Notes under the pieces: generated by a model
What the model saw: the letters and a program-made list of their open reading frames with translations, nothing else
The model's database searches: none
Told to the model about the DNA's origin: nothing
Shown here: positions 2,840-44,207 of the stretch, one piece after another
Layout: each line of letters starts with the position of its first letter
Numbering within the stretch: position 1 is the first letter of the stretch
From: Betaproteobacteria bacterium
GTDB lineage: Bacteria > Pseudomonadota > Gammaproteobacteria > Burkholderiales > Rhodocyclaceae
DNA: 64,000 nucleotides
Direction of reading: 5' to 3'
Assembly (NCBI GenBank): GCA_028065725.1
Contig: JAPTVL010000237.1
Location: forward strand, 51,751-115,750
Position numbers and translations under genes: made by a program

Positions 2840-4642
2840 TCATTTTTTGCGCATCGGCGGTAGGTCGGTGCAGGAACCGTGCGCCACCTCGGCCGCCATG
2901 CCTATGGTTTCGCCCAGGGTCGGATGGGGGTGGATGGTCTTGCCGATATCCACCGCGTCGGCCCCCATTTCGATCGCCAGCGCGACTTCGCCGATCATGT
3001 CGCCGGCGTTGGGGCCGACGATGCTGCCGCCGATCACGCGATGGGTTTCTTCGTCGAACACCAGCTTGGTGAAGCCGTAGTCGGCGCCGTTGGCGATCGC
3101 GCGGCCGGAAGCCGCCCAGGGAAACCTGGCGACACTGACCTTGCGCCCGGCCTTCTTCGCCTCGTCCTCGCCGACCCCGACCCATGCCACTTCCGGATGG
3201 GTGTAGGCGACACCGGGGATCACCGTCGCGTCGAAATGCGCCTTCTGCCCGGCCGCAGCCTCGGCCGCGACGTGCGCCTCATGCACCGCCTTGTGCGCCA
3301 GCATCGGCTGGCCGACGATGTCGCCGATGGCGAAGATGTGCGGCACGTTGGTGCGCATCTGGCTGTCGACCGGAATGAAGCCACGCTCGTTAACTGCAAC
3401 CCCCGCCTTCTCGGCGCCGATCTTCCTGCCGTTCGGGCTGCGTCCGGCGGACTGCAGGATCATGTCGTAGCGCTGCGCCTCAGCAGGCGCCTGCTCGCCT
3501 TCGAACTTGACCCAGAGGCCGTCCGGTTTGGCATCCACAGCAACGGTTTTGGTCTTGAGCATGATCTTGTCGAAACGCTTGGCGTTCTGCTTTTCCCAGA
3601 CCTTGACCAAGTCGCGGTCCGGCCCCTGCATCAGGCCGTCGAGCATTTCGACCACATCGACTTTCGCGCCCAGCGTCGAGTACACGGTGGCCATTTCGAG
3701 GCCGATGATGCCGCCGCCGATGACCAGCATCCGCTTCGGAACGAAGCGCAGTTCCAGCGCGCCGGTGGAATCGACAATGCGCGGGTCGCGCGGTATGAAG
3801 GGCAGATGGAAGGCCGCCGAGCCCGCGGCGATGATGCACTTCTGGAAACGGATCACCTTCTTCTCGCCGGTCTTCTCCTGTGCGCTGCCGGTCATGGCCT
3901 CGACTTCCAGATGGTTGGCGTCGAGGAAGTGGCCATAGCCGCGCACGGTCTGCACCTTGCGCGCCTTGGCCATGCCGGCCAGGCCGCCGGTCAGCTTGCC
4001 GACCACTTTTTCCTTGTGCGCGCGCAGCTTGTCGATATCCACCTTGGGCGCGGCAAAGCTGACGCCCAGATCGCTCGCATGCCCGGCCTCTTCCATCACC
4101 GCCGCGACATGCAGCAGCGCCTTGGACGGAATGCAGCCGACGTTGAGGCAGACGCCGCCGAGTGTCGCGTAGCGTTCGACGATGAGCGTCTTCATGCCCA
4201 GGTCGGCGGCGCGGAAGGCGGCCGAATAACCGCCGGGGCCGGCGCCGAGCACCAGCATTTCGCATTCGAGATCAGCCTTGCCGGCGAATTTGCCGACAGT
4301 GCTTGCGGCGACCGGAGCGACTACCGGCGCGGCGACGGGCGCTGCCATGGGAACCGCGGCGGGTGCTGCGGCCGCCGTGGCGCCAGCGCCGACTTTCGCA
4401 TCGGTAGCGGCGATCATCGCCACCAGCGTGCCTTCCGCGACCTTGTCACCCACCTTGATTTTCAGTTCCGTGACCACACCCGAGACCGGCGAAGGCACGT
4501 CCATGGTGGCCTTGTCGGATTCCAGGGTGATCAGCGAATCTTCGGCCTTGACCGTGTCGCCGACCTTGACCAGAACTTCGATGACCGGCACATCCTTGAA
4601 GTCGCCGATGTCCGGTACCTTCACTTCGACGATGTCACTCAT
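2840..4642 (-). CDS. lpdA: Dihydrolipoyl dehydrogenase (E3) with N-terminal lipoyl domain
   Basis: LpdA is the FAD-dependent E3 that reoxidises dihydrolipoamide on E2 with NAD+ in the pyruvate dehydrogenase complex. From ATG 4642 (MSDIVEVKVPDIGDF) the 600-aa protein has a lipoyl domain at 1-76 with the lipoylated Lys in ESDKATMD. An Ala/Pro/Val linker at 77-130 follows, then the flavoprotein: GAGPGGY FAD-binding loop, redox disulfide CLNVGC (Cys165/Cys170), GGGIIGLE NAD-binding loop and the C-terminal HPHPTLGE His-Glu pair near 573/578. Typical E3 is about 470 aa; the excess is the lipoyl domain and linker, a known betaproteobacterial arrangement. The linker holds copy 1 of the 25-bp repeat, read as KVGAGATA. 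The start overlaps the upstream gene by 8 nt; it is the last gene of the operon. Confidence 0.96.
   Translation of the reverse strand: MSDIVEVKVPDIGDFKDVPVIEVLVKVGDTVKAEDSLITLESDKATMDVPSPVSGVVTELKIKVGDKVAEGTLVAMIAATDAKVGAGATAAAAPAAVPMAAPVAAPVVAPVAASTVGKFAGKADLECEMLVLGAGPGGYSAAFRAADLGMKTLIVERYATLGGVCLNVGCIPSKALLHVAAVMEEAGHASDLGVSFAAPKVDIDKLRAHKEKVVGKLTGGLAGMAKARKVQTVRGYGHFLDANHLEVEAMTGSAQEKTGEKKVIRFQKCIIAAGSAAFHLPFIPRDPRIVDSTGALELRFVPKRMLVIGGGIIGLEMATVYSTLGAKVDVVEMLDGLMQGPDRDLVKVWEKQNAKRFDKIMLKTKTVAVDAKPDGLWVKFEGEQAPAEAQRYDMILQSAGRSPNGRKIGAEKAGVAVNERGFIPVDSQMRTNVPHIFAIGDIVGQPMLAHKAVHEAHVAAEAAAGQKAHFDATVIPGVAYTHPEVAWVGVGEDEAKKAGRKVSVARFPWAASGRAIANGADYGFTKLVFDEETHRVIGGSIVGPNAGDMIGEVALAIEMGADAVDIGKTIHPHPTLGETIGMAAEVAHGSCTDLPPMRKK
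4374..4398 (+). repeat. 25-bp dispersed repeat, copy 1 of 13 (in lpdA linker)
   Basis: GCCGTGGCGCC + AGCGCCGACTTTCG. It lies in the interdomain linker of lpdA on the strand opposite to the gene, so the protein reads K-V-G-A-G-A-T-A just after the lipoyl domain. Confidence 0.75.
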
Positions 4643-5216
4643 TGGCTTTCCCTTCCAGCTTGAACTCATAGACCACGATCGGCGGTCCGGACGAAGTGTC
4701 GAATTCGATGCCGGCGGCGACGCCGGCCTTGGCGATCTGCGCCGCCGTCAGCGGGCCGTCGTAGAGCGCGTGCATGGCGCCGAGGGCGAAACTGCGGCCG
4801 GAGCCGGCGGACCAGACGCGGTCGAATTCGAACACCTCGCGATAGGAATAGACGCCGTAGATGCCGCTGCTGTTGGCGATCAGGGCGGTGATCTGCGAGC
4901 TCTCGTAGGGATCGTCCTCGTCTTCCTTGGGATTGAGGAAGGCGTGTTCCTTGAGGATCGGATGCAGGCGACGGAAGGTTTCATAGACTTCCATGCGCGA
5001 ACCGAGCTTCACGTCCTCCAGCCTGGAGAAAGCGGAGAGCAGCACCAGGTGGTGCGCCGAGGAACCGCAGATGCCGATCTTCGATCTGGCGATGTCGAGG
5101 ATCTTGTCGTGCTCGCCCTTGTAGCTGCGCGGCAGGCGCGTGTCACCGAAAGTGGTGAGGCCGTCGGCGGCGATGGCGACCGCGTCGCCCTTCTTGACTA
5201 CGGTCAGCGTGGTCAC
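4635..5216 (-). CDS. Proteasome/HslV-like Ntn-hydrolase (betaproteobacterial proteasome homologue type) inside the PDH operon
   Basis: A 193-aa protein starting at GTG 5216, whose GTGA overlaps the aceF stop; its own stop overlaps the lpdA start. After Met removal it would begin T-T-L-T-V-V-K-K, the N-terminal nucleophile threonine arrangement of HslV and proteasome beta subunits. It keeps Asp17 (AIAADG), a Lys in HDKIL (position 37, a 4-residue offset from the catalytic Lys33 of HslV), and the C-terminal glycine loop AGSGRSFALGAMHAL that matches the HslV IGSGG...A..A. The length matches single-domain beta-type subunits. No ATPase partner (hslU, mpa, clpX) is nearby. Known family: self-compartmentalising peptidases including BPH of betaproteobacteria. 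That it acts on or with the PDH complex is only an inference from position. Confidence 0.75.
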   Translation of the reverse strand: MTTLTVVKKGDAVAIAADGLTTFGDTRLPRSYKGEHDKILDIARSKIGICGSSAHHLVLLSAFSRLEDVKLGSRMEVYETFRRLHPILKEHAFLNPKEDEDDPYESSQITALIANSSGIYGVYSYREVFEFDRVWSAGSGRSFALGAMHALYDGPLTAAQIAKAGVAAGIEFDTSSGPPIVVYEFKLEGKANE

Positions 5217-6934
5217 AGCATGCTTCTCCGCATGTCGGCTAGCAAAGCTGCCAGATAGACGTTGAAGCGCGTCGCCAGGGCGCCGTCGATCACGCGGTGG
5301 TCGGCGGTCAGCGACAGCGGCAGGATCAGGCGCGGGACGAATTGCTTGCCATCCCAGACCGGCTTCATGGCCGACTTGTTGACGCCGAGGATCGCCACTT
5401 CCGGCGCATTGACGATGGGCGCGAAATAGGTGCCGCCGATGCCGCCGAGGCTGGAAATCGTGAAGCAGGCGCCCTGCATGTCGGCCGGCTTGAGCTTGCC
5501 TTCGCGCGCCTGCTTGGCCAGTTCGCCGCTTTCCTTCGCCAGCTCGAACACGCCCTTGCTGTCGGCGTTCTTGATCACCGGCACGACCAGGCCGTTGGGC
5601 GTGTCGGCGGCGAAGCCGATGTTGTAGTACTTCTTCAGCACCAGACTCATTTCTGTACCACTCGCGTCGAGCGACGAGTTGAACTCGGGATACTTCTGCA
5701 TGGCCTTGACGCAGGCCTTGATCAGGAAGGCGAGCATGGTCAGCTTGGCCGCAGTTTTGTCGGCGGCCTTTTCGTTCTCCTTGTTGATCTGGACGCGGAA
5801 GGCTTCGAGGTCGGTGATGTCGGCGTCTTCGTGATAAGTGACGGCCGGGATCATGACCCAGTTGCGCGACAGGTTGGCGCCGGAAATCTTCTTGATGCGC
5901 GACAGAGGCTGCACATCGATGGCGCCGAATTTCGTGAAGTCGATCTTCGGCCAGGGCAGCAGATCGAGTCCACCGCCGAGTCCTGCCACAGGCGCCGCCG
6001 CTGGTGCGGCTGCCGCGCTGACCACGCCCTTGACCCAAGCCTGGACATCGCTCTGCATGATGCGTCCCTTGGGGCCGCTGCCCGGCACTTTGCCGATGTC
6101 GACGCCCAGTTCGCGCGCAAAGCGGCGCACCGACGGGCTGGCATGGGCCGCCCGGCAGGACACCCGGTCCGCCGGCGTCGGCATCGCGACGCGCGGCTGG
6201 GCGGAGATCAGGTCGGCATCGCCGGGACGGAAGTCGGCCGCGGCTCCACCGGCCGCCGGCACGCTAGCAGGTGCGGCCGCCGCTTGTGGCGCCACGCTTG
6301 CCGCGACCGGCGCTACGGCCGACGCAGCGGCAGCCACCGGCGCCGTAGCGCCAGCGCCGACCTTTACCAGCGCCAGCACGACGCCTTCCGCAACCTTGTC
6401 GCCGACCTTGACCCGCAGCTCGGTGACCACGCCGGATACCGGTGAGGGTATATCCATCGTCGCCTTGTCCGATTCCAGAGTCATTAGCGAGTCTTCCGCC
6501 TTCACCGCATCGCCGACCTTGACCAGCAACTCGATGATCGGCACGTCCTTGAAGTCGCCGATGTCGGGCACCTTGACTTCGACCTCGGTTGCGGCAGCGG
6601 CGGGCGCGGCAACCGGCGCGGCGGCGGCTGGCGGAACACTCGGTGCCGCTGCGGGAGCGGCGACAACAGACGCGGCGGCGCCCTGCCCGGCAGCGGCGCT
6701 GTCGATCAGGGCAACGAGGCTGCCCTCGGCCACCTTGTCGCCGACCTTCAGCCTGAGTTCGGTGACCACGCCGGAGACCGGCGAGGGCACATCCATGGTC
6801 GCCTTGTCGGATTCCAGCGTAACCAGCGAATCTTCAGCCTGCACCGTATCGCCAACCTTGACCAGCAGCTCGATCACCGGCACATCCTTGAAATCGCCGA
6901 TGTCGGGCACTTTCACTTCGACTATCTGAGCCAT
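5213..6934 (-). CDS. aceF: Pyruvate dehydrogenase E2, dihydrolipoamide acetyltransferase
   Basis: AceF (573 aa) forms the core of the pyruvate dehydrogenase complex and transfers the acetyl group from lipoyl-Lys to CoA. Domain order: lipoyl domain 1 (about 1-75), Ala/Pro linker, lipoyl domain 2 (about 116-190), second linker, peripheral subunit-binding domain (SPSVRRFARELGVDIGKVPGSGPKGR, about 255-300), and the catalytic domain with DHRVIDG (catalytic His546). Each lipoyl domain carries ESDKATMD. E. coli has three lipoyl domains; here two are in E2 and one is in LpdA. The second linker contains repeat copy 2, read KVGAGATAP. The start ATG 6934 lies 3 nt after the aceE stop, and the stop overlaps the following gene as GTGA. 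Confidence 0.97.
   Translation of the reverse strand: MAQIVEVKVPDIGDFKDVPVIELLVKVGDTVQAEDSLVTLESDKATMDVPSPVSGVVTELRLKVGDKVAEGSLVALIDSAAAGQGAAASVVAAPAAAPSVPPAAAAPVAAPAAAATEVEVKVPDIGDFKDVPIIELLVKVGDAVKAEDSLMTLESDKATMDIPSPVSGVVTELRVKVGDKVAEGVVLALVKVGAGATAPVAAAASAVAPVAASVAPQAAAAPASVPAAGGAAADFRPGDADLISAQPRVAMPTPADRVSCRAAHASPSVRRFARELGVDIGKVPGSGPKGRIMQSDVQAWVKGVVSAAAAPAAAPVAGLGGGLDLLPWPKIDFTKFGAIDVQPLSRIKKISGANLSRNWVMIPAVTYHEDADITDLEAFRVQINKENEKAADKTAAKLTMLAFLIKACVKAMQKYPEFNSSLDASGTEMSLVLKKYYNIGFAADTPNGLVVPVIKNADSKGVFELAKESGELAKQAREGKLKPADMQGACFTISSLGGIGGTYFAPIVNAPEVAILGVNKSAMKPVWDGKQFVPRLILPLSLTADHRVIDGALATRFNVYLAALLADMRRSML
6342..6366 (+). repeat. 25-bp dispersed repeat, copy 2 of 13 (in aceF linker)
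   Basis: GCCGTAGCGCC + AGCGCCGACCTTTA, antisense to aceF, in the linker between lipoyl domain 2 and the subunit-binding domain; the protein reads K-V-G-A-G-A-T-A-P. Confidence 0.75.
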
Positions 6935-6937
6935 GGC

Positions 6938-9610: not shown

Positions 9611-9785
9611 GACTTCTCCTCGTACTGACATTATTGGAGTCCGCCACACGGCATTGCAGCAGACTGCTTATTTGCGGCCGCTTCGCTTAACGCCGATCAC
9701 GCCGACGTCAGCCTGCACTGAAGCACCGCGTTGTTGCTCGCAGCATAGACCTAGTTCATGAATCAACACATCGCACTTATTTTGC

Positions 9786-9814
9786 ATTGTAAAAAATCAC
9801 TTCATAATACGCAA
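9786..9814 (-). promoter_or_regulatory. Sigma-70-type promoter of the aceE operon
   Basis: On the minus strand TTGCGT, a 17-nt spacer and TACAAT. It sits between the terminator of the biotin operon and aceE; the start site would be near 9779, giving a leader of about 170 nt. The -35 box lies in a short direct repeat CGTAT-TG-CGTAT, a possible regulator site. No TGGTnnnACCA PdhR-like site is visible here. Confidence 0.6.
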
Positions 9815-9900: not shown

Positions 9901-10062
9901 TCAGGTTTCGTCGGCGTCGCGTCGAAGTGCGGCTTTCTGCCGGGCACGGCTGGCGCGTTTGTCCTTGCGCTGATGCACGCCGCCCTTCTGCAGCAGCGGC
10001 GCCAGCGCCAGCGGATTGCGCGGTTTGATCGGCCGCAGCGGCCGTTGCCTGGCGCGCTTCAT
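9901..10062 (-). CDS. Small very basic hypothetical protein (53 aa)
   Basis: Reads MKRARQRPLRPIKPRNPLA... and ends ...RRDADET. Its ATG overlaps the bioC stop as ATGA, so it is probably translationally coupled, and an intrinsic terminator follows it directly. About a third of the residues are Arg or Lys. There is no cysteine pair, signal peptide or membrane segment. I do not recognise the family; a nucleic-acid- or ribosome-associated role would fit the composition but is a guess. The overlap, position before the terminator and absence of an alternative gene on this strand support it as real. Confidence 0.6.
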   Translation of the reverse strand: MKRARQRPLRPIKPRNPLALAPLLQKGGVHQRKDKRASRARQKAALRRDADET

Positions 10063-10877
10063 CGCGAATGGAACCGGATCACCGCGCGGCCGTCGGCGAC
10101 CTGCCGCGGCTCGGGTTTCCAGGCGTGGCCATAGACGATCTCGAAGCTTGCCGGCAGGCGCCGCTCGGCATCCCGCGGCCAGGCGCGCAACAGCCGGCGC
10201 CAGTCGCGCCAGGCCTGCCGGCCCAGCAGCGCGTCGCGCACGCCCAGATGGCGCTGGTCGGCGAGGAAGGCGCGCGGCGCGGCGTAGCTCAGCGTGATCA
10301 TCTCCATGTCCATCACCGGATCGCCGAAACCGGCGGCGACCAGCATGTCGCCCAGATCGTGCATGTCGAGAAAGCGCCGCACCGTATCGCCAGCGCCGAC
10401 TTCCGCCGCGGCCGCGCGCAACTGCTGCAGCGTATCGGGACCGAGCGTGGCGAAGCAGAGCAGGCCGCCGACTTCCAGCACGCGGTGCAATTCACGCAGA
10501 ACCGGCAGCGGGTCGTCGAGCCAATGCAGCATCAGATTGGACCAGACCAGGCCCAGCGAATTGGCCGCCAGCGGCAGGGTGCGGACGTCGGCATTGACCA
10601 GGCGCGGGCCCCGTCCAGTCAGCCGCTGCAGGCGCGGCGTGCGACTGCGCACGGCGCACAGCATCGGCAAGGCGTAATCGAGGGCCAGTGGCAGCGATTT
10701 GCCGTAGCGCGTTTGCAGCGCGCGGATGCCGTCGCCGGTGGCGCAGCCGATGTCGGCGATGCGCTGCGGAGCGATCTTTACCAGATCCAGCCGCGCCGCC
10801 ATGCGAGCGCCCACTTCGCGGGCGAGGACCGCGGCCGAGTCGTAAGTCCCCGCCGCGTCAGCGAAGTCGCCGCGCAC
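10059..10877 (-). CDS. bioC: Malonyl-ACP O-methyltransferase BioC
   Basis: BioC methylates the free carboxyl of malonyl-ACP with SAM so that fatty acid synthesis can build pimeloyl-ACP methyl ester for biotin. The 272-aa protein is a class I methyltransferase. Motif I is IADIGCATGDGIRAL, the acidic loop is LALDYALPML, and motif IV region is GLVWSNLMLHWLDDP, the pattern typical of BioC (SNxxLxW.D). The start is GTG 10877, 6 nt after the bioB stop. Repeat copy 3 lies inside, read E-V-G-A-G-D-T-V before a loop. The adjacent bioB gives strong support for BioC rather than a generic methyltransferase. Confidence 0.85.
   Translation of the reverse strand: MRGDFADAAGTYDSAAVLAREVGARMAARLDLVKIAPQRIADIGCATGDGIRALQTRYGKSLPLALDYALPMLCAVRSRTPRLQRLTGRGPRLVNADVRTLPLAANSLGLVWSNLMLHWLDDPLPVLRELHRVLEVGGLLCFATLGPDTLQQLRAAAAEVGAGDTVRRFLDMHDLGDMLVAAGFGDPVMDMEMITLSYAAPRAFLADQRHLGVRDALLGRQAWRDWRRLLRAWPRDAERRLPASFEIVYGHAWKPEPRQVADGRAVIRFHSR
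10381..10405 (+). repeat. 25-bp dispersed repeat, copy 3 of 13 (in bioC)
   Basis: ACCGTATCGCC + AGCGCCGACTTCCG, antisense to bioC; the gene reads E-V-G-A-G-D-T-V. Confidence 0.7.
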
Positions 10878-11929: not shown

Positions 11930-12637
11930 TTGTCAATTGCAGCGGATCTGAAGCAAGCCTTGCAGCGTGCCGCCACGGCCCTGCTGCCGCAGCACTGTTT
12001 CCTTTGCGCCGCCCCAAGCGGCGACCATCTGCTGTGCCCCGCCTGTGCCGCCAGCCTGCCCTACCTGAGCGCCGAACGCTGTCCGGTCTGCGCGTTGCCG
12101 ACCCCGGGTGCGAACCGCTGCGGCGCCTGCCTCAAGCAGGCGCCGCAGTTCGATGCGACGCTGGCGGTGTTCCGCTACGAGTTTCCGCTCGACCGCCTGA
12201 TCCAGTCGCTGAAGTACGCGCACCGTCTCGCCAGCGCCGACTTTCTCGGCCGCGCGCTGGCAAAGCTGCCGACGCCCTTCCGCCCCGACCTGGTCCTGCC
12301 GGTGCCGCTGGCGCCGGCGCGGCTGGCGGAGCGCGGCTTCAACCAGGCGCTGGAAATCGCCCGTCCGCTGGCCAATTCGCTCGGCGTGCCGCTGGAACTC
12401 CATGGCGTCAGGCGCCACCGTGACACCGCACCGCAGGCCGGGCTGCCGTGGAAGGAACGCCGACAGAACATCCGTCACGCCTTCGAATGCGACATCGACC
12501 TGACGGGCAAGACCGTGCTGGTGGTGGACGACGTGATGACCACCGGCGCCACGCTCGACGAACTGGCGCGCACGCTCAAGGCGCACGGCGCGGCGCGGGT
12601 GGAGAACTTCATCCTGGCGCGGGCGCTGAAGGATTGA
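11930..12637 (+). CDS. comF: ComF family phosphoribosyltransferase-like protein
   Basis: ComF-type proteins combine an N-terminal zinc-ribbon with a type I phosphoribosyltransferase fold; ComF is required for natural transformation in competent species, where it acts on internalised single-stranded DNA. The 235-aa protein has CFLC...CPAC...CPVC...CGAC pairs in the first 65 residues and the PRPP-binding motif [14 protein letters not shown] near residue 197. The start is TTG 11930 ([11 protein letters not shown]), preceded by GGAAGGAG with 7-nt spacing. Repeat copy 4 lies inside, read R-L-A-S-A-D-F. It is divergent from bioB, a common betaproteobacterial arrangement. Confidence 0.9.
12222..12246 (+). 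repeat. 25-bp dispersed repeat, copy 4 of 13 (in comF)
   Basis: ACCGTCTCGCC + AGCGCCGACTTTCT, sense to comF; read as L-A-S-A-D-F. Confidence 0.65.
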
Positions 12638-13166
12638 TCGCCAAGCCGAAACATCCATTCGCCAGGCGCTGGCTCATACCGCCGCTGTCGTACTGCTTGG
12701 GCCGCGTCAGGTAGGAAAGACCACGCTGGCGCTGCATATCGCTGCCAGTTGGCCGGACGGCACGGTTTATCTTGATCTCGAACGCCCAGCCGACCGGCTC
12801 CGCCTTGACGATGCCGACGCTTACCTGCGCGCCCAAAGCGGGAAGCTGGTCATCCTCGACGAAATCCACCGTGCCCCGGGCGTGTTCGATATCCTGCGCG
12901 GCATCATCGACGACAACCGCCAGGCCGGACAGCGCAACGGCCAGTTTCTGCTGCTGGGTTCGGCTGCGCTGGATCTGATGCACCAGTCGAGCGAAACCCT
13001 GGCCGGCCGGGTGGCCTATCTGGACATCGCACCGTTCAGCATCGGCGAAACCGCTGCGGCGGACCTTGATGCGACGCCGCTCTGGCTGCGCGGAGGATTC
13101 CCCGACAGCCTGCTCAACCAGTCTCGCCTGGCCGCCGCGCTCGGTGTCGCCAGCGCCGACTTTTGG
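12633..13166 (+). pseudogene. Truncated AAA+ ATPase (AAA_14/DUF4143 type)
   Basis: The frame encodes the N-terminal ATPase half of a DUF4143-type AAA+ protein: Walker A GPRQVGKTT, Walker B LVILDEIHRAPG, sensor-like FLLLGSAALDLM, and the family-typical WLRGGFPDSLLNQS. Two things mark it as dead or dying. The codon where the family starts Met-Ile-Asp-Arg-Gln is ATT (12633), and a stop lies two codons upstream. Homology-like sequence ends abruptly after SLLNQSRLAAALG, at repeat copy 5, so the C-terminal DUF4143 domain is absent. The frame runs on to 13544 but only as antisense of the next gene. Intact members are about 380-400 aa. It overlaps the end of comF. Confidence 0.7.
13142..13166 (+). 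repeat. 25-bp dispersed repeat, copy 5 of 13 (ATPase break point, left flank of MntA-HepT)
   Basis: TCGGTGTCGCC + AGCGCCGACTTTTG, the most diverged copy at its 5' end. It sits exactly where the ATPase fragment ends and 1 bp from the stop of the HepT-like gene. Confidence 0.7.
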
Positions 13167-13940: not shown

Positions 13941-14022
13941 GGGAAAGTGCTTCGATGCAGGCAATGGTGCCAGTGTAGCACCGCACACCGGAACCGAAAT
14001 CACCCGGAATCGCACCCGAGTC

Positions 14023-14047
14023 GCCGTCCCGCCAGCGCCGACTCTTG
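14023..14047 (+). repeat. 25-bp dispersed repeat, copy 6 of 13 (intergenic, right flank of MntA-HepT)
   Basis: GCCGTCCCGCC + AGCGCCGACTCTTG, 83 bp upstream of the MntA-like start. Same orientation as copy 5, about 880 bp away. Confidence 0.75.
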
Positions 14048-21748: not shown

Positions 21749-22198
21749 TTACAGGCCCCAGACTTGCGGCACCTTGACAAACCCGCTTTGCCCGTCGCGA
21801 TGCCTGACCTTGGCCCAGCCACCCGCAACGCCTTCCAGCAGCTCCAGCACCACGTCGCGTTCGGCTTCGAACACCAGCGCGGCCTTGTCGTCCGCGGCCG
21901 CGCGAACCTGGGTTCGATCGGCGCGCACGATGACATTGCGCTTGTCGGCCAGGTGCTTTTTTTCAATCCAGGCCAGGTCGCCCCGGCTGTCGCGCACCTT
22001 GGACCAGCCGTCGAGGCCGACCACCAGTTCCACCGGCGTGCCGCCCAGCACCACGAACAGGGGCTTGGCCTTGGCCGAAGGCGCGTCGTATACCGGCGCC
22101 GCCGCGATCACGGTGCGGTAGTCCAGCGCAAGCGCCGGCGCCGCGGTGACGAGCGCCGTCAGCGATATCAGTAAAGAAAATAGCCGCCGTAGCGCCAT
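21749..22198 (-). CDS. Exported SH3-domain protein
   Basis: A 149-aa protein with a signal peptide (MALRRLFSLLISLTALVTAAPALA) and two bacterial SH3 repeats: DYRTVIAAAPVYDAPSAKAKPLF...GLDGWSKVRDSRGDLAWIEKKHL, and NVIVRADRTQVRAAADDKAALVFEAERDVVLELLEGVAGGWAKVRHRDGQSGFVKVPQVWGL. Such SH3b modules usually bind peptidoglycan, so a periplasmic cell-wall role is likely. It lies 6 bp after secB and 42 bp before gpsA on the same strand. No enzymatic domain is visible. Confidence 0.85.
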   Translation of the reverse strand: MALRRLFSLLISLTALVTAAPALALDYRTVIAAAPVYDAPSAKAKPLFVVLGGTPVELVVGLDGWSKVRDSRGDLAWIEKKHLADKRNVIVRADRTQVRAAADDKAALVFEAERDVVLELLEGVAGGWAKVRHRDGQSGFVKVPQVWGL

Positions 22199-22204
22199 TG
22201 CCGA

Positions 22205-22657
22205 CTATTGCAGCTGAATCTTGCTTTCGGCCTGCTGCTCCATCAGGCGCTGCTGATAGAGCGATTCGAAATTGACCGGGGCCAGAATCACGGGCGGGAA
22301 GCCGGCGCGAGTGATCGCATCGGAGATGGTTTCGCGCGCATACGGAAAAAGGATGTTGGGGCAAGCCACGGCAAGAATCGGCTCCATGTCCTGCTCCGGC
22401 ACGTTACGGATCTGGAATATGCCGGCCTTCACCACCTCGACCAGGAAAAAGGCCTTGTCGCCTTCCTTGGCGTTCACGGTGATCGTCAGCGCCACTTCAT
22501 ACATGCCGTCGCCGATGGTGTTCGCCGCGCTCTGGATCTGCACTTCGATGCTCGGTGTCTCGCGCTCCAGAAAGATCTGCGGGGCGTTGGGCACTTCGAT
22601 GGAGAGATCCTTGACGTAAATCTTTTCGATGCTGAATACGGGCTGCTCGTCGCTCAT
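22205..22657 (-). CDS. secB: Protein-export chaperone SecB
   Basis: SecB (150 aa) keeps secretory preproteins unfolded and hands them to SecA. Family motifs are present in order: FSIEKIYVKDLSIEVPNAPQIF, PSIEVQIQ, YEVALTITV, AFFLVEVVKAGIFQIRNV, CPNILFPYARETISDAITRAGFPPVILAPVNFE SLYQQR. It lies between grxC and the SH3 gene, the usual betaproteobacterial neighbourhood (rhodanese-grxC-secB-gpsA). Confidence 0.97.
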   Translation of the reverse strand: MSDEQPVFSIEKIYVKDLSIEVPNAPQIFLERETPSIEVQIQSAANTIGDGMYEVALTITVNAKEGDKAFFLVEVVKAGIFQIRNVPEQDMEPILAVACPNILFPYARETISDAITRAGFPPVILAPVNFESLYQQRLMEQQAESKIQLQ

Positions 22658-23956: not shown

Positions 23957-24706
23957 ATGTACAAAATCGTTCTGCTTCGCCACGGCGAATCGACCTGGAA
24001 CCAGGAAAACCGCTTCACCGGCTGGACCGACGTCGGCCTTACCGAGAAGGGACTGGCCGAAGCCGTGGCCGCCGGACAGTTGCTCAAGAAGGAAGGCTTC
24101 GCCTTCGACATCGCCTATACCTCGGTACTGCGCCGGGCGATCAAGACGCTATGGACGGTGCTGGAGGAAATGGACCGGATGTGGATCCCGGTGCAGCATT
24201 CCTGGCGACTGAACGAACGCCATTACGGCGACCTGCAGGGGCTCAACAAGGCCGAGACCGCGGCCAAGTTCGGCGACGAACAGGTGCTGGTCTGGCGCCG
24301 CGCCTACGACACGCCGCCGCCACCGCTGGCCGAGAACGATCCGCGCCTGGAAACCGCCAATCCGCGCTATGCGGACCTGCCGCCCGCGCAGTTTCCGCGT
24401 ACCGAGTGCCTCAAGGACACCGTGGAGCGTTTCCTGCCCTACTGGCACGAAACCATCGCACCGATGGTGAAATCGGGCAAAAAGGTGATCATCGCCGCCC
24501 ACGGCAACAGTCTGCGCGCTCTGATCAAGTATCTCGACAATGTCTCGGACGCCGACATCGTCGGCCTCAACATTCCCACCGCACAACCGCTGGTCTATGA
24601 GCTGGATGCGAACCTGAAGCCGATCCGCAACTACTATCTGGGCGATGCCGACGCGATCAAGGCTGCCATGCAGGCGGTGGCGAATCAGGGCAAAGCCAAG
24701 GCGTGA
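23957..24706 (+). CDS. gpmA: 2,3-bisphosphoglycerate-dependent phosphoglycerate mutase
   Basis: GpmA (249 aa) interconverts 3- and 2-phosphoglycerate in glycolysis. The phosphohistidine motif LRHGESTWN (His9) is followed by [25 protein letters not shown], the Glu-containing [12 protein letters not shown], and the second His motif [16 protein letters not shown]. The length and the C-terminal tail match the dPGM family. It is first in a plus-strand operon; its stop overlaps the envC start as GTGA. Confidence 0.97.
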
Positions 24707-25920
24707 TACCCGGACGCAGGATTTGCGGCTATGCACTTTGCCTTGCCGCATTCCTTGCTCCCACTGCATTCGCCGCCGGCGTCGATGCGAAGAAGAACCA
24801 GCTGCAGGACCTGAAAGGCCGTATCGAGACCCTGCGCCGCGAAATGGCGGCGGCCGAGGAATCCAGGACCTACGCCGCCGACCAGCTGCGCGCAACCGAA
24901 TCGGCGATCTCCAACACCAACCGACGATTGCATGAACTGGGCATCGAACGTGCGGCACTGCAAGCCGAACTGGCCGATCTCGAAATCCAGAACCAGCGCC
25001 TGGACCACCAGACCGGCATGCAACAGAACCAGTTGGCGCGCCTGCTCAATCGCCAGTTTGTCGGTGGCGATGCGGACGCGCTGAAGCTGCTGCTGTCGGG
25101 CCACGATCCCAACCAATCGGCGCGCGACAGATACTTCCTGACCCGGCTCTCGCGCGCCAAGGCTGACCTGATCCAGCAGTTGCGCGCCGTCGCGGACGAG
25201 AAGAAACGCCTGGCCGATGCCGCGCGCGAACGCCAGACGCAGCTGGCCGAGATCGAACACCGGCAACAGGAAAGCCGCGCCCAGCTGCTTGACCGCAAGA
25301 AACAGCGACTGACCAAGCTGGCGGCGATCGCCGACCGGCTCAAGGCCCAGCACCGTGAAATCAATACCCTGCAACGCAACGAACAGCGACTCGCAAAACT
25401 GATCGAGGGGCTGGCCCGCATTGCAGCGACGAAGCGGGCCAAGCCGAAAGTCGGCGCTGGCGGCACGGCGGCAGCGCGGCCGTCGAAGCTCAAGAACCAC
25501 GATCCGGGCGATGTCGGCGGCGCCTTCGCTGCCCTGCGCGGCAAACTCCGCCTGCCGGTCAAGGGCACCATTGCCGGGCGCTTCGGCAGCCCGCGCCCGG
25601 AGGGAGGGGCCGCCTGGAAAGGCGTATTCATCCGCGCCGCCGAGGGCCTCGAAGTCAGGGCCGTGGCGGGTGGCGCCGTGGTGTTCTCGGACTGGCTGCG
25701 CGGCTTCGGCAACCTGCTGATCATCGACCATGGCGATGACTTCCTTTCCGTCTATGGCAACAACGAATCCCTGCTGGCATCGCTAGGCGCCAGCATCAAG
25801 AGCGGCGAAACGGTGGCCACCGTGGGAAACAGCGGCGGCAATCCGGACTCGGGTTTATACTTTGAGCTTAGACATAAGGGTCAGCCGTTCGACCCGCTGA
25901 AATGGGCCGGTGATCGCTGA
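24703..25920 (+). CDS. envC: EnvC-like murein hydrolase activator
   Basis: A 405-aa secreted protein from GTG 24703: signal peptide ([24 protein letters not shown]), a long coiled coil from about 30 to 245, a linker, and a C-terminal M23/LytM domain. The LytM zinc ligands are replaced (AWKGVFIR where HxGxD is expected; LYFELRH where HxH is expected), as in EnvC, which activates amidases at the septum instead of cutting peptidoglycan itself. The linker contains repeat copy 7, read PKVGAGGTA. It is followed by ctpA, the usual gpmA-envC-ctpA order. Confidence 0.9.
25445..25469 (-). repeat. 25-bp dispersed repeat, copy 7 of 13 (in envC linker)
   Basis: On the minus strand GCCGTGCCGCC + AGCGCCGACTTTCG. 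It is in the EnvC linker between coiled coil and LytM domain; the gene reads K-V-G-A-G-G-T-A. Confidence 0.75.
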
Positions 25921-28645: not shown

Positions 28646-29017
28646 TCAGTACAACTGACGGTGCCGAATCCGTCCCGGCGCGTGGCTGAGCGCGACCGAG
28701 AAGGCCAGCACGAACCAGAACAGGCCGAGGCGCCCCGGCTCCCAGACCACCATCAGCGCCACCAGCGCGATCTTGAGCAAGGTGCCGAGGCCCTTGGCCT
28801 GGCGAAAGTAAAGCCGATTGGCCCAGGCGTCGAGCGCGACGATGCCAAGTCCCGAGACCAGCATCAACGCACCCCAGCTCCCAGCAGCGCCGGCACCGCC
28901 CAGCACCATGGCGGAAACCCCGGCCAGGCCGGCGATGTGGAACACACGCAGGATGTTGATCAGCAGTCCGCGGCCAGGGAAATCGCGGTGGCCGTCGTCG
29001 GCTTTCTGCTTAGGCAA
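28646..29017 (-). CDS. Small integral membrane protein
   Basis: About 123 aa with four hydrophobic segments: LRVFHIAGLAGVSAMVLGGAGAAG, WGALMLVSGLGIVALDAWANRLYF, LLKIALVALMVVW and LGLFWFVLAFSVALSH. The frame stays open upstream through ribD. The only plausible start past the ribD stop region is TTG 29017 (8-nt overlap), with no Shine-Dalgarno, so the true start is uncertain. It lies downstream of ribD on the same strand. The family is not recognised. Confidence 0.6.
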   Translation of the reverse strand: MPKQKADDGHRDFPGRGLLINILRVFHIAGLAGVSAMVLGGAGAAGSWGALMLVSGLGIVALDAWANRLYFRQAKGLGTLLKIALVALMVVWEPGRLGLFWFVLAFSVALSHAPGRIRHRQLY

Positions 29018-30107
29018 GACGGGCCCGTATGCGAAAGTCGGCGCCGACGCTACGGCGTTCGATGACGTCGAGGCGCTGAACGCCGGCCAGGTCGCCGAGT
29101 TCGGCCAGGCCGAACATGCCACGCGCGACATCGCCGATCAGGATCGGCGCCTGGTAGATCAGCAGCTCGTCGACACAGCCTTCGCGCAGCAGCGAACCGT
29201 TGAGCCGGGTGCCGGCTTCGGCCAGCACTTCGTTGATGCCGCGCCGGCCGAGTTCCTGGAGCAACCCGGCCAGGTCGACCTTGCCTTGCGCATTGGGCAG
29301 CAGCACGATCTCGGCGCCACGCGCGCGCAGTGCCGCGCTGCGTCCAGCACCATCCTGCGCCGCAGCGATCAGCACCTTGCCGCCCTCCAGCACAGCGGCA
29401 TCGAGCGGCGTTTCGAGCCGGCTGTCGATCACCACGCGCAGCGGTTGTCGAGTCGTCGGCACCTCGCGCACGGTAAGCCGCGGGTTGTCGTCCTTGACGG
29501 TGCCGATGCCGGTCAGCACGGCGCAGGAGCGGGCGCGCCAGGCGTGGGCGTCGCGCCGCGCATCGGGCCCGGTGATCCATTGCGAAACGCCGTTGTTGAG
29601 CGCGGTCTTGCCATCGAGACTGGCAGCGACCTTGAGCCGCAGCCAGGGCCGGCCGCGCATCATGCGCGAGACGAAGCCGATGTTGAGCTCCCCCGCCTCA
29701 GCCGCCAGCAGGCCGTTGGCAACCTCGATGCCGGCCTTGGCCAGCCGCGCCAGTCCCTGCCCGGCCACCAGCGGGTTCGGATCCTGCATCGCCGCCACCA
29801 CGCGCACCACGCCAGCCTCGATCAGCGCGTCGGCGCAGGGCGGGGTGCGGCCATGGTGGCTGCAGGGTTCCAGTGTGACATAGGCCGTGGCGCCCAGCGC
29901 CGTATCGCCGGCGCCGACTATTGCCGCCAGGGCGGCGGCTTCGGCATGCGGCTGGCCAGCCTGCTCGTGCCAGCCCTCGCCGATGATGCGGCCGTCGCGG
30001 ACGATGACGCAGCCGACGCGGGGATTGGGAGTGGTGCTGAAAAGCCCGCGCTGCGCCAGCTGCAGCGCACGCGCCATGAATCCATGGTCGGCCGCGGAAA
30101 AGCTCAT
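29010..30107 (-). CDS. ribD: Bifunctional riboflavin biosynthesis deaminase/reductase RibD
   Basis: RibD deaminates the pyrimidine ring of the GTP-derived intermediate and then reduces the ribose side chain. The 365-aa protein has the N-terminal deaminase with zinc motif HAE and PCSHHGRTPPC, and the C-terminal reductase from about 150 (WLRLKVAASLDGKTAL, SQWITG, SRLETPL, EAGTRLNGSLL). Two copies of the 25-bp repeat fall in it: one is read AIVGAGDTALGATAYVTLEPC just before the zinc motif, the other gives the C-terminal RRSVGADFRIR. The minus-strand gene order is glyA-nrdR-ribD, common in proteobacteria. Confidence 0.96.
   Translation of the reverse strand: MSFSAADHGFMARALQLAQRGLFSTTPNPRVGCVIVRDGRIIGEGWHEQAGQPHAEAAALAAIVGAGDTALGATAYVTLEPCSHHGRTPPCADALIEAGVVRVVAAMQDPNPLVAGQGLARLAKAGIEVANGLLAAEAGELNIGFVSRMMRGRPWLRLKVAASLDGKTALNNGVSQWITGPDARRDAHAWRARSCAVLTGIGTVKDDNPRLTVREVPTTRQPLRVVIDSRLETPLDAAVLEGGKVLIAAAQDGAGRSAALRARGAEIVLLPNAQGKVDLAGLLQELGRRGINEVLAEAGTRLNGSLLREGCVDELLIYQAPILIGDVARGMFGLAELGDLAGVQRLDVIERRSVGADFRIRARLA
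29032..29056 (-). repeat. 25-bp dispersed repeat, copy 8 of 13 (ribD 3' end)
   Basis: On the minus strand GCCGTAGCGTC + GGCGCCGACTTTCG. It encodes the last strand of RibD (S-V-G-A-D-F). This copy differs at two core positions. Confidence 0.65.
29899..29923 (+). repeat. 25-bp dispersed repeat, copy 9 of 13 (in ribD deaminase domain)
   Basis: GCCGTATCGCC + GGCGCCGACTATTG, antisense to ribD; the gene reads I-V-G-A-G-D-T-A in the loop before the zinc motif. Confidence 0.7.
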
Positions 30108-31915: not shown

Positions 31916-32560
31916 CTAGCCGGCGACCTCGTCCAGCGCCCGCTGCAAGTGCGTACAGTCGGCCCACGAAATCAGGCGCCAGCCCGTATCGCCGTATTCC
32001 AGCCAGTTGAAAGCGGCATTCGGCAGGGCAAAGTCGCGCGGTACATCGAGCGCACGACCGGCGGCCGCGCGGTAGACAACGTCGAGCACGCCGCCATGGG
32101 TGAAGGCGAGCACGCTCTGGCCCGGATGGCGCGCGGCCAGATCTTGCAAGCCGGCCATTACGCGCACCGCGAAATCCACCAGGGATTCCCCGGTTTCGCA
32201 GTCATAGTCCGGCGTCCGCGCCTGGTGCTGGCGGTAGGCATGCGGCCTGGCCAGCATCGCTTCGGCAGCTGTAAGGCCTTGCAGTACGCCGAAATCGCGC
32301 TCGCGAAGAGTCGGCGCCGGTGACACGGCGATCTGCCACCCCGCCGCGGCAATCTGCGCCGTGCGCCAAGCGCGCAGCAGGTCGCTGCTATAGACCGCGG
32401 CAAATCGCTGCCCGCGCAAACCCTCCGCCACGGCGCGCGCCTGCGCTTGCCCTGTGCTGTTGAGATCGATGTCGATCTGCCCCTGGACGCGCTTCTCGCT
32501 GTTCCAGTCGGTTTCGCCGTGACGAACCAGACAGAATCGGGTGCTCCGGATTGCAGTCAT
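31916..32560 (-). CDS. Histidine phosphatase family protein (phosphoglycerate-mutase-like)
   Basis: A 214-aa cytoplasmic phosphatase-fold protein with LVRHGETDWN (catalytic His about 14), YSSDLLRAWRTAQ, the Glu-containing LRERDFGVLQGLT, and the second His in LAFTHGGVLDVV. The family includes CobC-, GpmB- and YtjC-like enzymes; the substrate cannot be told from sequence. Repeat copy 10 is inside, read V-S-P-A-P-T-L-R-E-R-D-F, which directly abuts the catalytic Glu loop. It lies 10 bp from the GntR-type regulator on the same strand. Confidence 0.88.
   Translation of the reverse strand: MTAIRSTRFCLVRHGETDWNSEKRVQGQIDIDLNSTGQAQARAVAEGLRGQRFAAVYSSDLLRAWRTAQIAAAGWQIAVSPAPTLRERDFGVLQGLTAAEAMLARPHAYRQHQARTPDYDCETGESLVDFAVRVMAGLQDLAARHPGQSVLAFTHGGVLDVVYRAAAGRALDVPRDFALPNAAFNWLEYGDTGWRLISWADCTHLQRALDEVAG
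32305..32329 (-). repeat. 25-bp dispersed repeat, copy 10 of 13 (in histidine phosphatase gene)
   Basis: On the minus strand GCCGTGTCACC + GGCGCCGACTCTTC, in the sense orientation of the gene; read as S-P-A-P-T-L-R. Confidence 0.65.
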
Positions 32561-37230: not shown

Positions 37231-37266
37231 GGCGATTCAGTCCGGCCTCACTGGCCGGCTGCCCGT

Positions 37267-37292
37267 ACAAACCCCGCTGCGGCGGGGTTTGT
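37267..37292. terminator. Terminator between dctP and the convergent methyltransferase gene
   Basis: Perfect 11-bp stem ACAAACCCCGC / GCGGGGTTTGT with a 4-nt loop. The arms contain T/A runs that can serve either strand; no long T-tract follows, so strength is uncertain. Confidence 0.65.
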
Positions 37293-37336
37293 CATTTGGC
37301 CAATGACCAACCGGGGCGCGGGGTCCGCCTCGCGTG

Positions 37337-38467: not shown

Positions 38468-38602
38468 GACGATGTCTTGCTGCGAGCCAGGCTGGCCGGT
38501 AACAACACGAGCGCTCCTTGATCACCGTCGAAGGCCCGCATGGTACGTGGCCGGCGACCGTCTGTAAATTTTTCGTGCAGGCGTTCGCGGTGCCGCGTTG
38601 CC

Positions 38603-38627
38603 GCCGTAGCGCCAGCGCCGACTCTTT
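38603..38627 (+). repeat. 25-bp dispersed repeat, copy 11 of 13 (left flank of the spermidine-synthase-like gene)
   Basis: GCCGTAGCGCC + AGCGCCGACTCTTT, intergenic, 24 bp upstream of the ATG at 38651. Same orientation as copy 12. Confidence 0.75.
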
Positions 38628-38650
38628 GCGCTAAAGTCGCGGTCCCCGCC

Positions 38651-40006: not shown

Positions 40007-40016
40007 GTCGCCGGCC

Positions 40017-40041
40017 GCCGTAGCGCCAGCGCCGACTGTTG
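40017..40041 (+). repeat. 25-bp dispersed repeat, copy 12 of 13 (right flank of the spermidine-synthase-like gene)
   Basis: GCCGTAGCGCC + AGCGCCGACTGTTG, in the 36-bp gap between the stop at 40006 and the end of convergent pmbA (40043). Its first 21 bases equal those of copy 11. Confidence 0.75.
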
Positions 40042-40042
40042 C

Positions 40043-41380: not shown

Positions 41381-41456
41381 GCGGGAACCCTTCGATTGGC
41401 GAAGCTATAATCATATCCCACCGGGGGATACCGTCCCCTTCGCAAGCTCCGGGGAC

Positions 41457-42011: not shown

Positions 42012-42017
42012 AGGCGC

Positions 42018-42290
42018 TTAGGCAAAGTCCTTTTGCGGCGCGGCCACCGGACTGGTGCCCGGGGTGAGGATGGTCAGCACCGCCTGCGCGTGTTCCGCCG
42101 CATCGCGTCCCAGCCCTGTCAGGTAGCCGCCGTCGGCCAGGGTCAGCAAACCCTTGGCATGCAGGCGCTGCGTCGCGGCAATGACTTCCGGATCGGCGGT
42201 CTTGTGCACCTTGATACCATGCTGGCTGGTTTCCAGGTCGAAGCGGATCAGGGTATTCAGTTCGTGGACCAGATCGGGCGTATAGGGCAT
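42018..42290 (-). CDS. TIGR02647 family protein (small, DNA-binding-like)
   Basis: A 90-aa protein (MPYTPDLVHELNTLIRFDLETSQHGIKVHKTADPEVIAATQRLHAKGLLTLADGGYLTGLGRDAAEHAQAVLTIL...). I recognise the TIGR02647 pattern: a helix-turn-helix-like arrangement with LxxKGLITxxDGGYLT. Function is unknown in the family; annotations as DNA-binding are by fold. The C-terminal 15 residues are disordered. It stands alone between yjgA (convergent) and the CysB-type gene. Confidence 0.82.
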   Translation of the reverse strand: MPYTPDLVHELNTLIRFDLETSQHGIKVHKTADPEVIAATQRLHAKGLLTLADGGYLTGLGRDAAEHAQAVLTILTPGTSPVAAPQKDFA

Positions 42291-42390
42291 GTCAAACCTC
42301 GCTCTTGAATGTACGGCAATGGGCGCATTCTAGCTTCCGCAGCCGTGGGCGCCGGCTTTTGCCCAAACGAAATCTGCTGCGGCCAGGAAC

Positions 42391-43332
42391 TCAAAGCCCG
42401 GGATCGACGCCTTCACCCTTTTGCGTTGCCTCGACCATATGCCGCGTCAGTTGCGGTGCCAGCAATTCCATGAAGTCGTAGTCGTAGCCGCGCAGCCAGA
42501 TGTCGCGGCGAAACGCCACACGCGTGGTATTGCCCTCGAACAGGTGTGTCGCCGGGATGGCCGCCAGCGCATCGTCGCGCAAGGGATCGAAGGCCATTTC
42601 GGCGATGATGCCGACGCCCAGGCCAAGGCCGACATAGGTCTTGATCACGTCGGAATCGATGGCCGTCAGCATCACATTGGGACGCAGGCTCTGCCGTTCG
42701 AAGGCGCGATCGATGCGCGAACGCCCGGTGAAGGTCGCGTCATAGGTGATCAGCGGATAGTCGCCGAGTGCCGCCAGTGTCAGCGGCTGGCGCTCCAGCA
42801 GGGGATGCCCGCGCGGAGTCACCACCAAGTGCGCCCACTGGAAACAGGGCAAGGTCAGCAATTCAGGATGCCGATCGAGTGCCTCGGTGGCGATGCCCAG
42901 ATCGGCGCTGCCGTCCAGCACCCAGTCTGCGACCTGCAACGGGCTGCCCTGCTGGATGTGCAGTCGAATCGCCGGGTGGCGCTGGACGAAGCGCTGGATC
43001 ACCGGCGGCAAGGTGTAGCGCGCCTGGGTGTGGGTGGTCGCGATGGACAGCGTGCCGCTACTCTCCGCGGCGTAGTCCTCGCCGACCCGCTTCATGTTCT
43101 GTGCCTCGTTGAGCATGCGCCGCGCCATCGCCAGCACCACCGATCCGGGCGCGGTAACCGCGGTGAGGCGCTTGCCGCTGCGCTCGAAAATCATCACGCC
43201 CAGCTCTTCTTCAAGCATGCCAATCTGCTTGGAGACCCCCGGTTGGGAGGTGAACAGCGCCTCGGCAGCAGCGGAAATGCTGAGTCCGCGCCGCTCGACT
43301 TCGACCAGGTAACGCAGCTGTTGAAGTTTCAT
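42391..43332 (-). CDS. cysB: CysB-type LysR regulator
   Basis: A 313-aa LysR-type regulator of the CysB/Cbl branch: MKLQQLRYLVEVERRGLSISAAAEALFTSQPGVSKQIGMLEEELGVMIFERSGKRL is the typical CysB helix-turn-helix. The effector domain keeps the SIATTHTQARYTLPPVIQRF segment with the Thr residues that bind sulfate, thiosulfate or acetylserine, and GLGLGVGIIAEMAFDP. It is divergent from the tauE-cys operon, which it probably activates in response to sulfur limitation. The 74-bp gap is AT-rich with a 6-bp-arm inverted repeat AAATAC/GTATTT at 43363-43381. Confidence 0.93.
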   Translation of the reverse strand: MKLQQLRYLVEVERRGLSISAAAEALFTSQPGVSKQIGMLEEELGVMIFERSGKRLTAVTAPGSVVLAMARRMLNEAQNMKRVGEDYAAESSGTLSIATTHTQARYTLPPVIQRFVQRHPAIRLHIQQGSPLQVADWVLDGSADLGIATEALDRHPELLTLPCFQWAHLVVTPRGHPLLERQPLTLAALGDYPLITYDATFTGRSRIDRAFERQSLRPNVMLTAIDSDVIKTYVGLGLGVGIIAEMAFDPLRDDALAAIPATHLFEGNTTRVAFRRDIWLRGYDYDFMELLAPQLTRHMVEATQKGEGVDPGL

Positions 43333-43406
43333 GCCCCGATTATATATCGTTTAGTTCTATGCAAATACATACTAAGTATTTTCCAGAACTATATCGACTC
43401 GTTACG

Positions 43407-44207
43407 ATGCATCCCATCATGGAATTCAGCTTCAATCCCCTGCTCCCGCTGTCCGGCTTCGCCGTCGGCCTGCTGGTCGGCCTGACCGGTGTCGGTGGCG
43501 GTTCGCTGATGACGCCGCTGCTGGTACTGCTTTTCGGCTTCAAGCCAGCGACCGCAGTGGGCACTGACTTGCTCTATGCGGCGATCACCAAGAGCGGCGG
43601 CTCCTGGGTCCATCACCGTCACGACAACATCGACTGGGCCATCACCAGGCGTCTGGCGCTGGGCAGCGTCCCCGCGGCGGGCCTTACGCTGCTGGCGCTG
43701 TCGCAACTGGGCATACAAGGTCACGGCGCGACGGGATTGATCTCGGTGGTACTCGGATTCGCCCTGCTGCTGACCGCCCTCTCCCTGTTTTTCCGCCAGC
43801 GCCTGCTGGAACTGGCCCGCCGCCGTCCCGCCAGCGCCGACTTTCAGAAGCACACCACCGTACTGACAGTGCTGGCCGGCGCAGCGCTTGGCGTGCTGGT
43901 GACGATCTCTTCGGTCGGCGCCGGCGCCCTTGGTGTTACCGCCTTGACCTTCCTCTACCCACAACTCGCCACGCGCCGCATCGTCGGCTCCGACATCGCC
44001 CACGCGGTGCCGCTGACCCTGGTCGCCGGCCTCGGCCACTGGTGGCTGGGCACGGTGGATGTCGTGCTGCTGGTGTCGCTACTGATCGGTTCGCTGCCCG
44101 GTATCGCGCTGGGTGCCCACTTCGCCGCCAAGGTGCCGGAACGCGCCCTGCGCGGTCTACTCGCTTCCGTCTTGTTGCTGATCGGCGGCAAGCTGATCCT
44201 CGCTTAA
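43407..44207 (+). CDS. TauE/SafE family sulfite/sulfonate exporter-type permease
   Basis: A 266-aa membrane protein with the TauE/SafE repeat: GFAVGLLVGLTGVGGGSLMTPLLVLLFGFKPATAVGTDLLYAAITKSGGSW in the first half and GVLVTISSVGAGALGVTALTFLYPQLATRRIVGSDIAHAV in the second. About seven to eight helices are visible. Family members move sulfite, sulfoacetate or related anions. It is first in the sulfur-assimilation operon, 9 bp before the hemoprotein gene. Either ATG 43407 or 43419 may start it; neither has a clear ribosome site. Repeat copy 13 lies in the loop between the two halves, read R-R-P-A-S-A-D-F. Confidence 0.88.
   Translation: MHPIMEFSFNPLLPLSGFAVGLLVGLTGVGGGSLMTPLLVLLFGFKPATAVGTDLLYAAITKSGGSWVHHRHDNIDWAITRRLALGSVPAAGLTLLALSQLGIQGHGATGLISVVLGFALLLTALSLFFRQRLLELARRRPASADFQKHTTVLTVLAGAALGVLVTISSVGAGALGVTALTFLYPQLATRRIVGSDIAHAVPLTLVAGLGHWWLGTVDVVLLVSLLIGSLPGIALGAHFAAKVPERALRGLLASVLLLIGGKLILA
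43822..43846 (+). repeat. 25-bp dispersed repeat, copy 13 of 13 (in TauE/SafE gene)
   Basis: GCCGTCCCGCC + AGCGCCGACTTTCA, sense to the gene, in the central cytoplasmic loop; read R-P-A-S-A-D-F. It is the last copy towards the ribosomal region. Confidence 0.72.

Follow-up and report, generated by a model that had tools for sequence, protein, structure and literature searches.

The 64,000-nucleotide stretch of DNA analyzed here, referred to below as the window (contig JAPTVL010000237.1 of assembly GCA_028065725.1, positions 51,751 to 115,750, from a betaproteobacterium of the Rhodocyclaceae), carries a 25-bp repeat that is dispersed within and between its genes and that we regard as a candidate DNA uptake sequence. 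A scan of both strands with the consensus [CT]GCCGTNYCGCCAGCGCCGACTTTY, at a mismatch limit of 4 or 5, gave 15 sites at ≤4 mismatches and likewise at ≤5. In 40 first-order Markov simulations of the window there was a mean of 0.1 site and a maximum of 1 at ≤5 mismatches, and the reversed pattern matched 0 sites in the window itself. An earlier note on this DNA had listed 13 copies; all 13 are present, with positions right to within 2 bases, and the octamer GCGCCGAC that it called invariant is intact in 13/13. By itself this octamer is common in the window, with 35 matches versus 11.5 expected. Rfam families gave 0 matches in the window at the gathering threshold.

Gene calls, which here and below come from a simple codon-usage script and not from a standard gene finder, place nine of these 13 copies inside eight genes, as the earlier note had held for nine, and four between genes. 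At the left end of the window, copies on the plus strand lie inside lpdA (2840–4642, minus strand; copy at 4373–4397, 1 mismatch) and aceF (5213–6934, minus; copy at 6341–6365, 2 mismatches), both read as KVGAGATA, and inside a bioC-like methyltransferase gene (10059–10877, minus; copy at 10380–10404, 2 mismatches). The plus-strand copy at 12221–12245 (1 mismatch) lies in a comF-like gene (11960–12637, plus) and is read HRLASADFL; two others, at 13140–13164 (2 mismatches) and 14022–14046 (1 mismatch), stand between called genes on the same strand. A perfect copy on the minus strand (25446–25470) is read KVGAGGTA in a gene at 24703–25920 (plus). The gene ribD (29010–30107, minus) holds two copies, one on the minus strand at 29033–29057 (3 mismatches), read RRSVGADFR, and one on the plus strand at 29898–29922 (2 mismatches), and a histidine phosphatase gene (31916–32560, minus) holds a minus-strand copy at 32306–32330 (3 mismatches). 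Farther right on the plus strand are an intergenic copy at 38602–38626 and a copy between convergent genes at 40016–40040 (2 mismatches each), followed by a perfect copy at 43821–43845 that is read RRPASADFQ in a TauE/SafE gene (43407–44207, plus). Pfam backs the names that these genes had been given (lpdA, aceF, a bioC-like methyltransferase, comF-like, ribD, histidine phosphatase, and TauE), with a change for the supposed envC at 24703–25920, for which it gives a Peptidase_M23 protein. Two copies lie beyond the original 13: a degenerate one on the plus strand at 22185–22209 (4 mismatches), where secB (22205–22657, minus) ends, and a minus-strand copy at 49079–49103 (3 mismatches) within a gene for a GTPase of the EF-Tu type (48124–49404, plus). 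The second of these contradicts the claim that 44–64 kb is free of copies; what is left is a weak scarcity there (one site out of 15, in 20 kb out of 64), at a p of about 0.03.

The limits of the repeat were drawn from a wider sample. Scanning a genome collection with one exact 26-bp form returned at least 120 stretches. The titles of those listed were mostly those of Rhodocyclaceae, Rhodocyclales, or Sulfuritalea metagenome-assembled genomes, together with Sulfurisoma, Rugosibacter, Propionivibrio, Burkholderiaceae, unplaced Beta- or Gammaproteobacteria, and other phyla in single records. In 870,754 bases from which 120 seed copies had been removed, a 20-bp core of the motif recurred 57 times at 0 mismatches and 55 times at 1 mismatch, and the reversed control found none at ≤2 mismatches in the same bases. 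The profile of 110 fully flanked copies reads [CT]GCCGT-N-Y-CGCCAGCGCCGACTTT[TC] over 25 bp, and on both sides of this unit information drops to background at once. One base occurs in ≥90% of copies at 20 of the 25 positions, 17 of which had served to select the copies. The mismatch spectrum peaks at 0 to 2, with scant excess above 5. Four half sites in G011 (contig C1; 12406, 56452, 145291, and 346518) have TTTCAT as their 5′ part and retain an intact 3′ part at two; possibly, the motif has its core in the 3′ half. Other short words were seen along the way. The word TTGGGGCGGCCCG is a second over-represented word in G011 C1 (21 to 22 copies in 360 kb), and a second short repeat, GGATACCGCTTCGCAT, stands beside motif copies in ribD of G675 (locus L280) and TauE of G019 (L468), with one copy in each of three loci (L280, L468, and L413 of G478). 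In positions 1–200000 of G040 C1, a family of 12-mers around AATCAGGGCATGTT has about 59 copies and is probably a CRISPR array.

Genome-wide counts at ≤1 mismatch, made alongside a reversed-pattern control, divide the relatives into carriers and noncarriers. The GTDB family was represented by 297 genomes, in which the count is 163 to 621 copies in 36, 11 to 45 in 6, and 0 to 7 in 255; in an order-level set of 399 genomes, 4 hold 170 to 598 copies and 395 hold ≤6; and among 20 genomes reached via loci, 18 hold 99 to 621, with 1 copy each in two from other phyla. The reversed pattern gave 0 to 2 matches per counted genome. The earlier note had named counts at the level of shuffled sequence as the outcome that would undo its case, and counts in the relatives stand well apart from the reversed-pattern control. 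In 200 kb from each of two motif-free relatives of 64 to 67% GC, no copy was found. The window's own host is, by its protein sequences, a relative of Sulfuritalea: its RibD shares 92% identity with the G012 protein and 88 to 90% with those of eight others, it falls inside a supported group of 12 rows in a RibD tree, and its ComF shares 84% identity with a protein named Sulfuritalea. By their record titles, many of the motif-bearing Rhodocyclaceae come from groundwater and lakes. Copies are few in G621 (20) and G001 (99), both of the Sulfuritalea group, and in G437 (21), which lies outside the tree. No replacement motif was obvious in the sampled DNA of G437 and G621 (a 152-kb sample of the latter), which, with the few copies in these two genomes, suggests that the system was lost. 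Some motif-poor genomes cluster several of their few copies (G491 C1 1461267–1502264, G466 C66 and C104, and G533 C1), as would be expected of imported islands or prophages. Records from other phyla in the scan (Omnitrophota, Dependentiae, and Thermoleophilia) have 1 copy each and a Casimicrobiaceae bin has 6; these are probably stray contigs or imports.

Copies are enriched between genes and show no polarity. In 360 kb of G011, the 72 sites (≤5 mismatches) fall inside genes in 46 cases, between genes in 22, and on a boundary in 4; called genes leave 12% of this DNA uncovered, and the intergenic excess (22/72) has a p of 3e-5. In 400 kb of G478, where 10% of the DNA lies outside called genes, the 76 sites (≤4 mismatches) comprised 48 in genes, 27 between, and 1 on a boundary (27/76, p 2e-9). 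Intergenic enrichment was 3.5-fold in G478, 3.3-fold in the window, 2.7-fold in G268, 2.5-fold in G011, and 1.6-fold in G040. In G011, G268, and the window, every coding copy is in one of four frames (AVPPAPTF, RRxASADF, KVGAGxTA, and KSALAxRR), and a sixth frame holds no copy in any of the five samples. Forward and reverse counts are about equal across genomes. In G478 the two replichores carry 19 plus and 21 minus versus 22 plus and 14 minus copies (p = 0.26), strand use thus not tracking GC skew; all 20 sampled stretches of this genome hold copies, 1 to 7 each. A strand bias apparent in one listing was not borne out by the sequence of 20 sampled stretches.

How the motif came to occupy its sites is best seen at ribD 29033, the cleanest site, where an alignment of the window with the 30 best loci is gap-free in 31/31 orthologues. 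The motif-free G444 and G419, whose orthologues are of equal length here, and the motif-rich G011, which has no copy here, differ from the motif by substitutions only. The unchanged length at this one clean site argues for substitution, not insertion. The earlier note had also named, as an outcome that would count against it, orthologues in distant taxa that all carry the same bases for protein reasons; the motif-free orthologues differ at this site, and the bases are thus not kept for protein reasons alone. The best 120 of 6127 ComF homologues have no gap at the motif either, all of them being close and mostly keeping the motif residues. Between the window and four relatives, identity was 87% in the motif, 76% in its own flanks, and 81% in the background, over 55 ordered comparisons that are not independent. 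The intergenic copy at 40016 is kept in G478 and G017 despite surrounding DNA that aligns poorly.

The motif also occurs in one-base dialects. In de novo 12-mer counts the motif core ranks first in G011 and in the window, and a one-base variant, AGCGTCGACTTT, ranks first in G457. Exact whole-genome counts of dialect words in 47 genomes found an A-dialect word, CCGTNNCGCCAGCGCCAACT / GCGCCAACT, 222 times in G012 and 275 times in G636, with 0 to 7 in the other 45, and a second dialect word, CCGTNNNNCCAGCGTCGACT / GCGTCGACT, 119 times in G457 and 100 times in G522, with 0 to 10 in the other 45; the second dialect is dominant in G457 and common in G522. The shift can be followed at individual orthologous sites: ribD 29898, histidine phosphatase 32306, and TauE 43821 have A in G012 and G in the window and G478, G636 also has the A dialect at the ribD site, and ASANF variants among ComF proteins match the A form at the protein level. 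In the RibD tree, the single gene tree on which the dialect phylogeny is based, the window stands closest to G012 and G636, with weak support for the fork that joins all three, and G457 and G522 are far apart, so that the C-to-T change in their dialect probably arose twice.

Viral DNA carries the motif as well. At least 120 stretches with the motif were returned from IMG/VR. Ten proteins, picked because the motif lies in their genes, were run against PHROGs: four are portal proteins, two are anti-repressors, and a terminase large subunit, a transposase, and a DNA methyltransferase account for one each. The tenth has its main matches in families of unknown function and a weaker one in an endolysin family. 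In six virus records of 28, 39, 15, 34, 75, and 36 kb the copies number 6, 1, 1, 4, 3, and 2, a density not clearly below the hosts' one per 6 to 18 kb, in records that were selected for having a copy. An origin from plasmids or named phages was considered and rejected, one 25-base form having given only chance-like partial matches of 17 to 22 bases in both collections. One IMG/VR locus, L021, has five copies (882, 1198, 1514, 1830, and 2215) spaced 316 to 385 bp apart, each in a similar repeated unit, and copies in L011, L040, L055, and L112 adjoin sequences that resemble integron attC sites.

Taken together, these data make it probable that Sulfuritalea and related Rhodocyclaceae have, in this repeat, a DNA uptake sequence. 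We propose that kin cells release DNA whose 25-bp motif would be bound by a receptor, which is probably a minor pilin belonging to a type IV competence pilus. Motif-bearing DNA would then be pulled in preferentially, as part of a natural competence that these bacteria may possess, and would recombine with the homologous locus, such that motif alleles, being taken up more often, would gain ground by molecular drive at every site where the function of the protein permits it. A one-base shift common to hundreds of copies in sister species would mark a changed preference of the receptor. Biased uptake and recombination would account for substitution in place, intergenic enrichment, the lack of polarity, the erosion seen in some genomes, and, above all, the dialects. 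With somewhat less assurance, we favor the fuller proposal that a further, apparently independent, lineage of long, information-rich uptake sequences marks a transformation network of uncultured Rhodocyclaceae and their phages and is split into single-base dialects between sister species.

Several observations weigh against this reading. The RibD tree groups the motif-free G444 and G419 with the motif-rich G011, G450, and G020, and in this tree carriers thus do not form one exclusive clade, an arrangement left unsure by long branches. The ribD 29033 copies of G012 and G636 are degenerate, with GAC or GAT and no A form; the A shift is therefore not seen at every site. A fifth frame, which is disfavored, accounts for some of the coding copies: 4 of 48 in G478 and 3 of 22 in G040. 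The TauE loop around 43821 varies in length, and in some relatives extra bases adjoin the motif both at this site and at ribD 29898, so that these two sites do not settle the choice between substitution and insertion. The competence machinery speaks both ways. A ComEC domain is present in 35/35 tested genomes but also in 10/14 controls. Pilins of the ComP_DUS family are present in 32 of the 35 (21/21 motif-rich, 3/4 motif-poor or dialect) and 0/14 controls, but they extend to 8/10 motif-free relatives, and G457, which has its own dialect, is without a match. A pilin subtype, A1, with a C-terminal CW..GG.C loop was modeled from nine motif-rich genomes. At a cutoff of 115 bits, set after the list was seen, it occurs in 29/39 motif-rich, 3/4 motif-poor or dialect, and 7/18 motif-free genomes (p = 0.02), a link that is weak and biased because of how the model was built. 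Neither the ComP_DUS family nor A1 is diagnostic of the motif, and both were rejected as markers; A1 may serve as a lead and is not an identification of the receptor. Among solved structures, the matches listed were pilins, aligned mainly over the N-terminal helix, and none of those listed was named ComP.

The main rival explanation is an intracellular protein that organizes or segregates the chromosome and binds the motif without polarity, a change in which would shift all sites in concert. We consider this unlikely, if less so than any other alternative. The occurrence of copies in every sampled stretch of G478 and the conservation of sites between relatives are in its favor, and concerted change could equally follow from an altered DNA-binding protein; yet the conservation over 25 bp would seem stronger than is required to recognize sites in a genome of 4 Mb, and phage contigs carry the motif within terminase and portal genes. 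For its polar variants, such as FtsK-orienting polar sequences (KOPS) and Chi, orientation is skewed between replichores, and a polar chromosome-organization motif is disfavored by the strand use of G478. If phages carried the motif, or if it served in phage-host recombination, with the host copies as a by-product, this would explain the numerous IMG/VR stretches, the copies inside hallmark phage genes, and, with the selection of records in mind, a viral density close to that of the hosts. Against it stand copies in the core host genes lpdA, aceF, and ribD at conserved orthologous positions, the hundreds of copies in 36 of 297 genomes, and the fact that copies in the window are not confined to prophage remnants; this explanation we hold to be distinctly improbable.

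Less credible still is in-frame insertion of a short mobile element, of the kind seen with the Rickettsia palindromic elements, in which insertion adds length to the host gene. Many dispersed copies do lie in intact genes, and the indels near TauE and ribD 29898 in some relatives could be read as traces of insertion, but flanking homology ends with the 25 bp, 25 is not a multiple of three, length is constant at ribD 29033 and in the ComF homologues compared, and orthologous sites show bases replaced, not inserted. The mobile element was disfavored by the absent flanking element and the unchanged length at ribD 29033. Chance, or codon and amino acid bias in GC-rich DNA, can be regarded as refuted: the abundance of the octamer alone is what might be expected of it, but simulations and reversed controls yield almost no sites at ≤5 mismatches, in agreement with the earlier note's judgment that the repeat is too conserved for chance, and the two motif-free relatives of 64 to 67% GC are empty over the 200 kb sampled from each. 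That note had offered three readings, of which the uptake sequence is supported by the genome-wide comparison; the mobile repeat and the polar chromosome motif find no support.

If the repeat is indeed an uptake sequence, transformation marked by sequence would not be peculiar to bacteria of animal hosts, and environmental Rhodocyclaceae may exchange DNA marked as their own. It would provide an independent case from which rules for receptors could be drawn, and the dialect shifts between close relatives would make receptor-motif co-evolution directly testable and allow the birth of transformation barriers to be followed across hundreds of dispersed sites. The motif might also serve to mark imported DNA and the hosts of phages in metagenomes. 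Among the literature matches listed, in a search whose coverage ended short of subscription papers and bioRxiv preprints, there was no report of uptake sequences in Rhodocyclaceae or Rhodocyclales; the letters of the motif returned no paper, and among the matches listed for GCGCCGACT no paper was on the subject by title.

The repeat invites comparison with several known systems. It resembles Rickettsia palindromic elements, repetitive extragenic palindromic (REP) sequences, and bacterial interspersed mosaic elements (BIME) in being a dispersed short repeat with some copies within genes, and it differs from them in having no flanking element and in having arisen by substitution at the cleanest site. 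With the DNA uptake sequences (DUS) of Neisseriaceae, which are read by the minor pilin ComP, it shares many dispersed copies in and between genes as well as genome-wide single-base dialects in related species, and the occurrence of two dialects in one genome may be compared with G522. GCCGTC, on the 5′ side of the motif, is also part of the neisserial sequence. Unlike the neisserial DUS, the present motif is 25 bp long, has a variable two-base step and an unrelated core, AGCGCCGACTTT, and reaches ≤621 copies per genome at ≤1 mismatch. One study describes DUS of 10 to 12 bp with a conserved CTG core, 2245 to 5918 copies in the dialect genomes, and dialects that include two in the single genome of Simonsiella muelleri (PMC3630211).

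Another paper names Pasteurellaceae and Neisseriaceae as having uptake sequences (PMC7811141). For the uptake signal sequence (USS) of Haemophilus influenzae, a 9-bp core within a 29-bp consensus and a share of about 65% within reading frames are given in PMC1939737, where uptake sequences are also suggested to evolve by point mutation rather than by insertion. The motif described here is like the USS of Pasteurellaceae in its long extended consensus, in an apparent origin by point mutation, and in its coding share (48/76 in G478 versus about 65%). It is unlike that USS in its unrelated sequence, in the strong conservation of nearly all 25 bp, and in having a betaproteobacterial family as its host.

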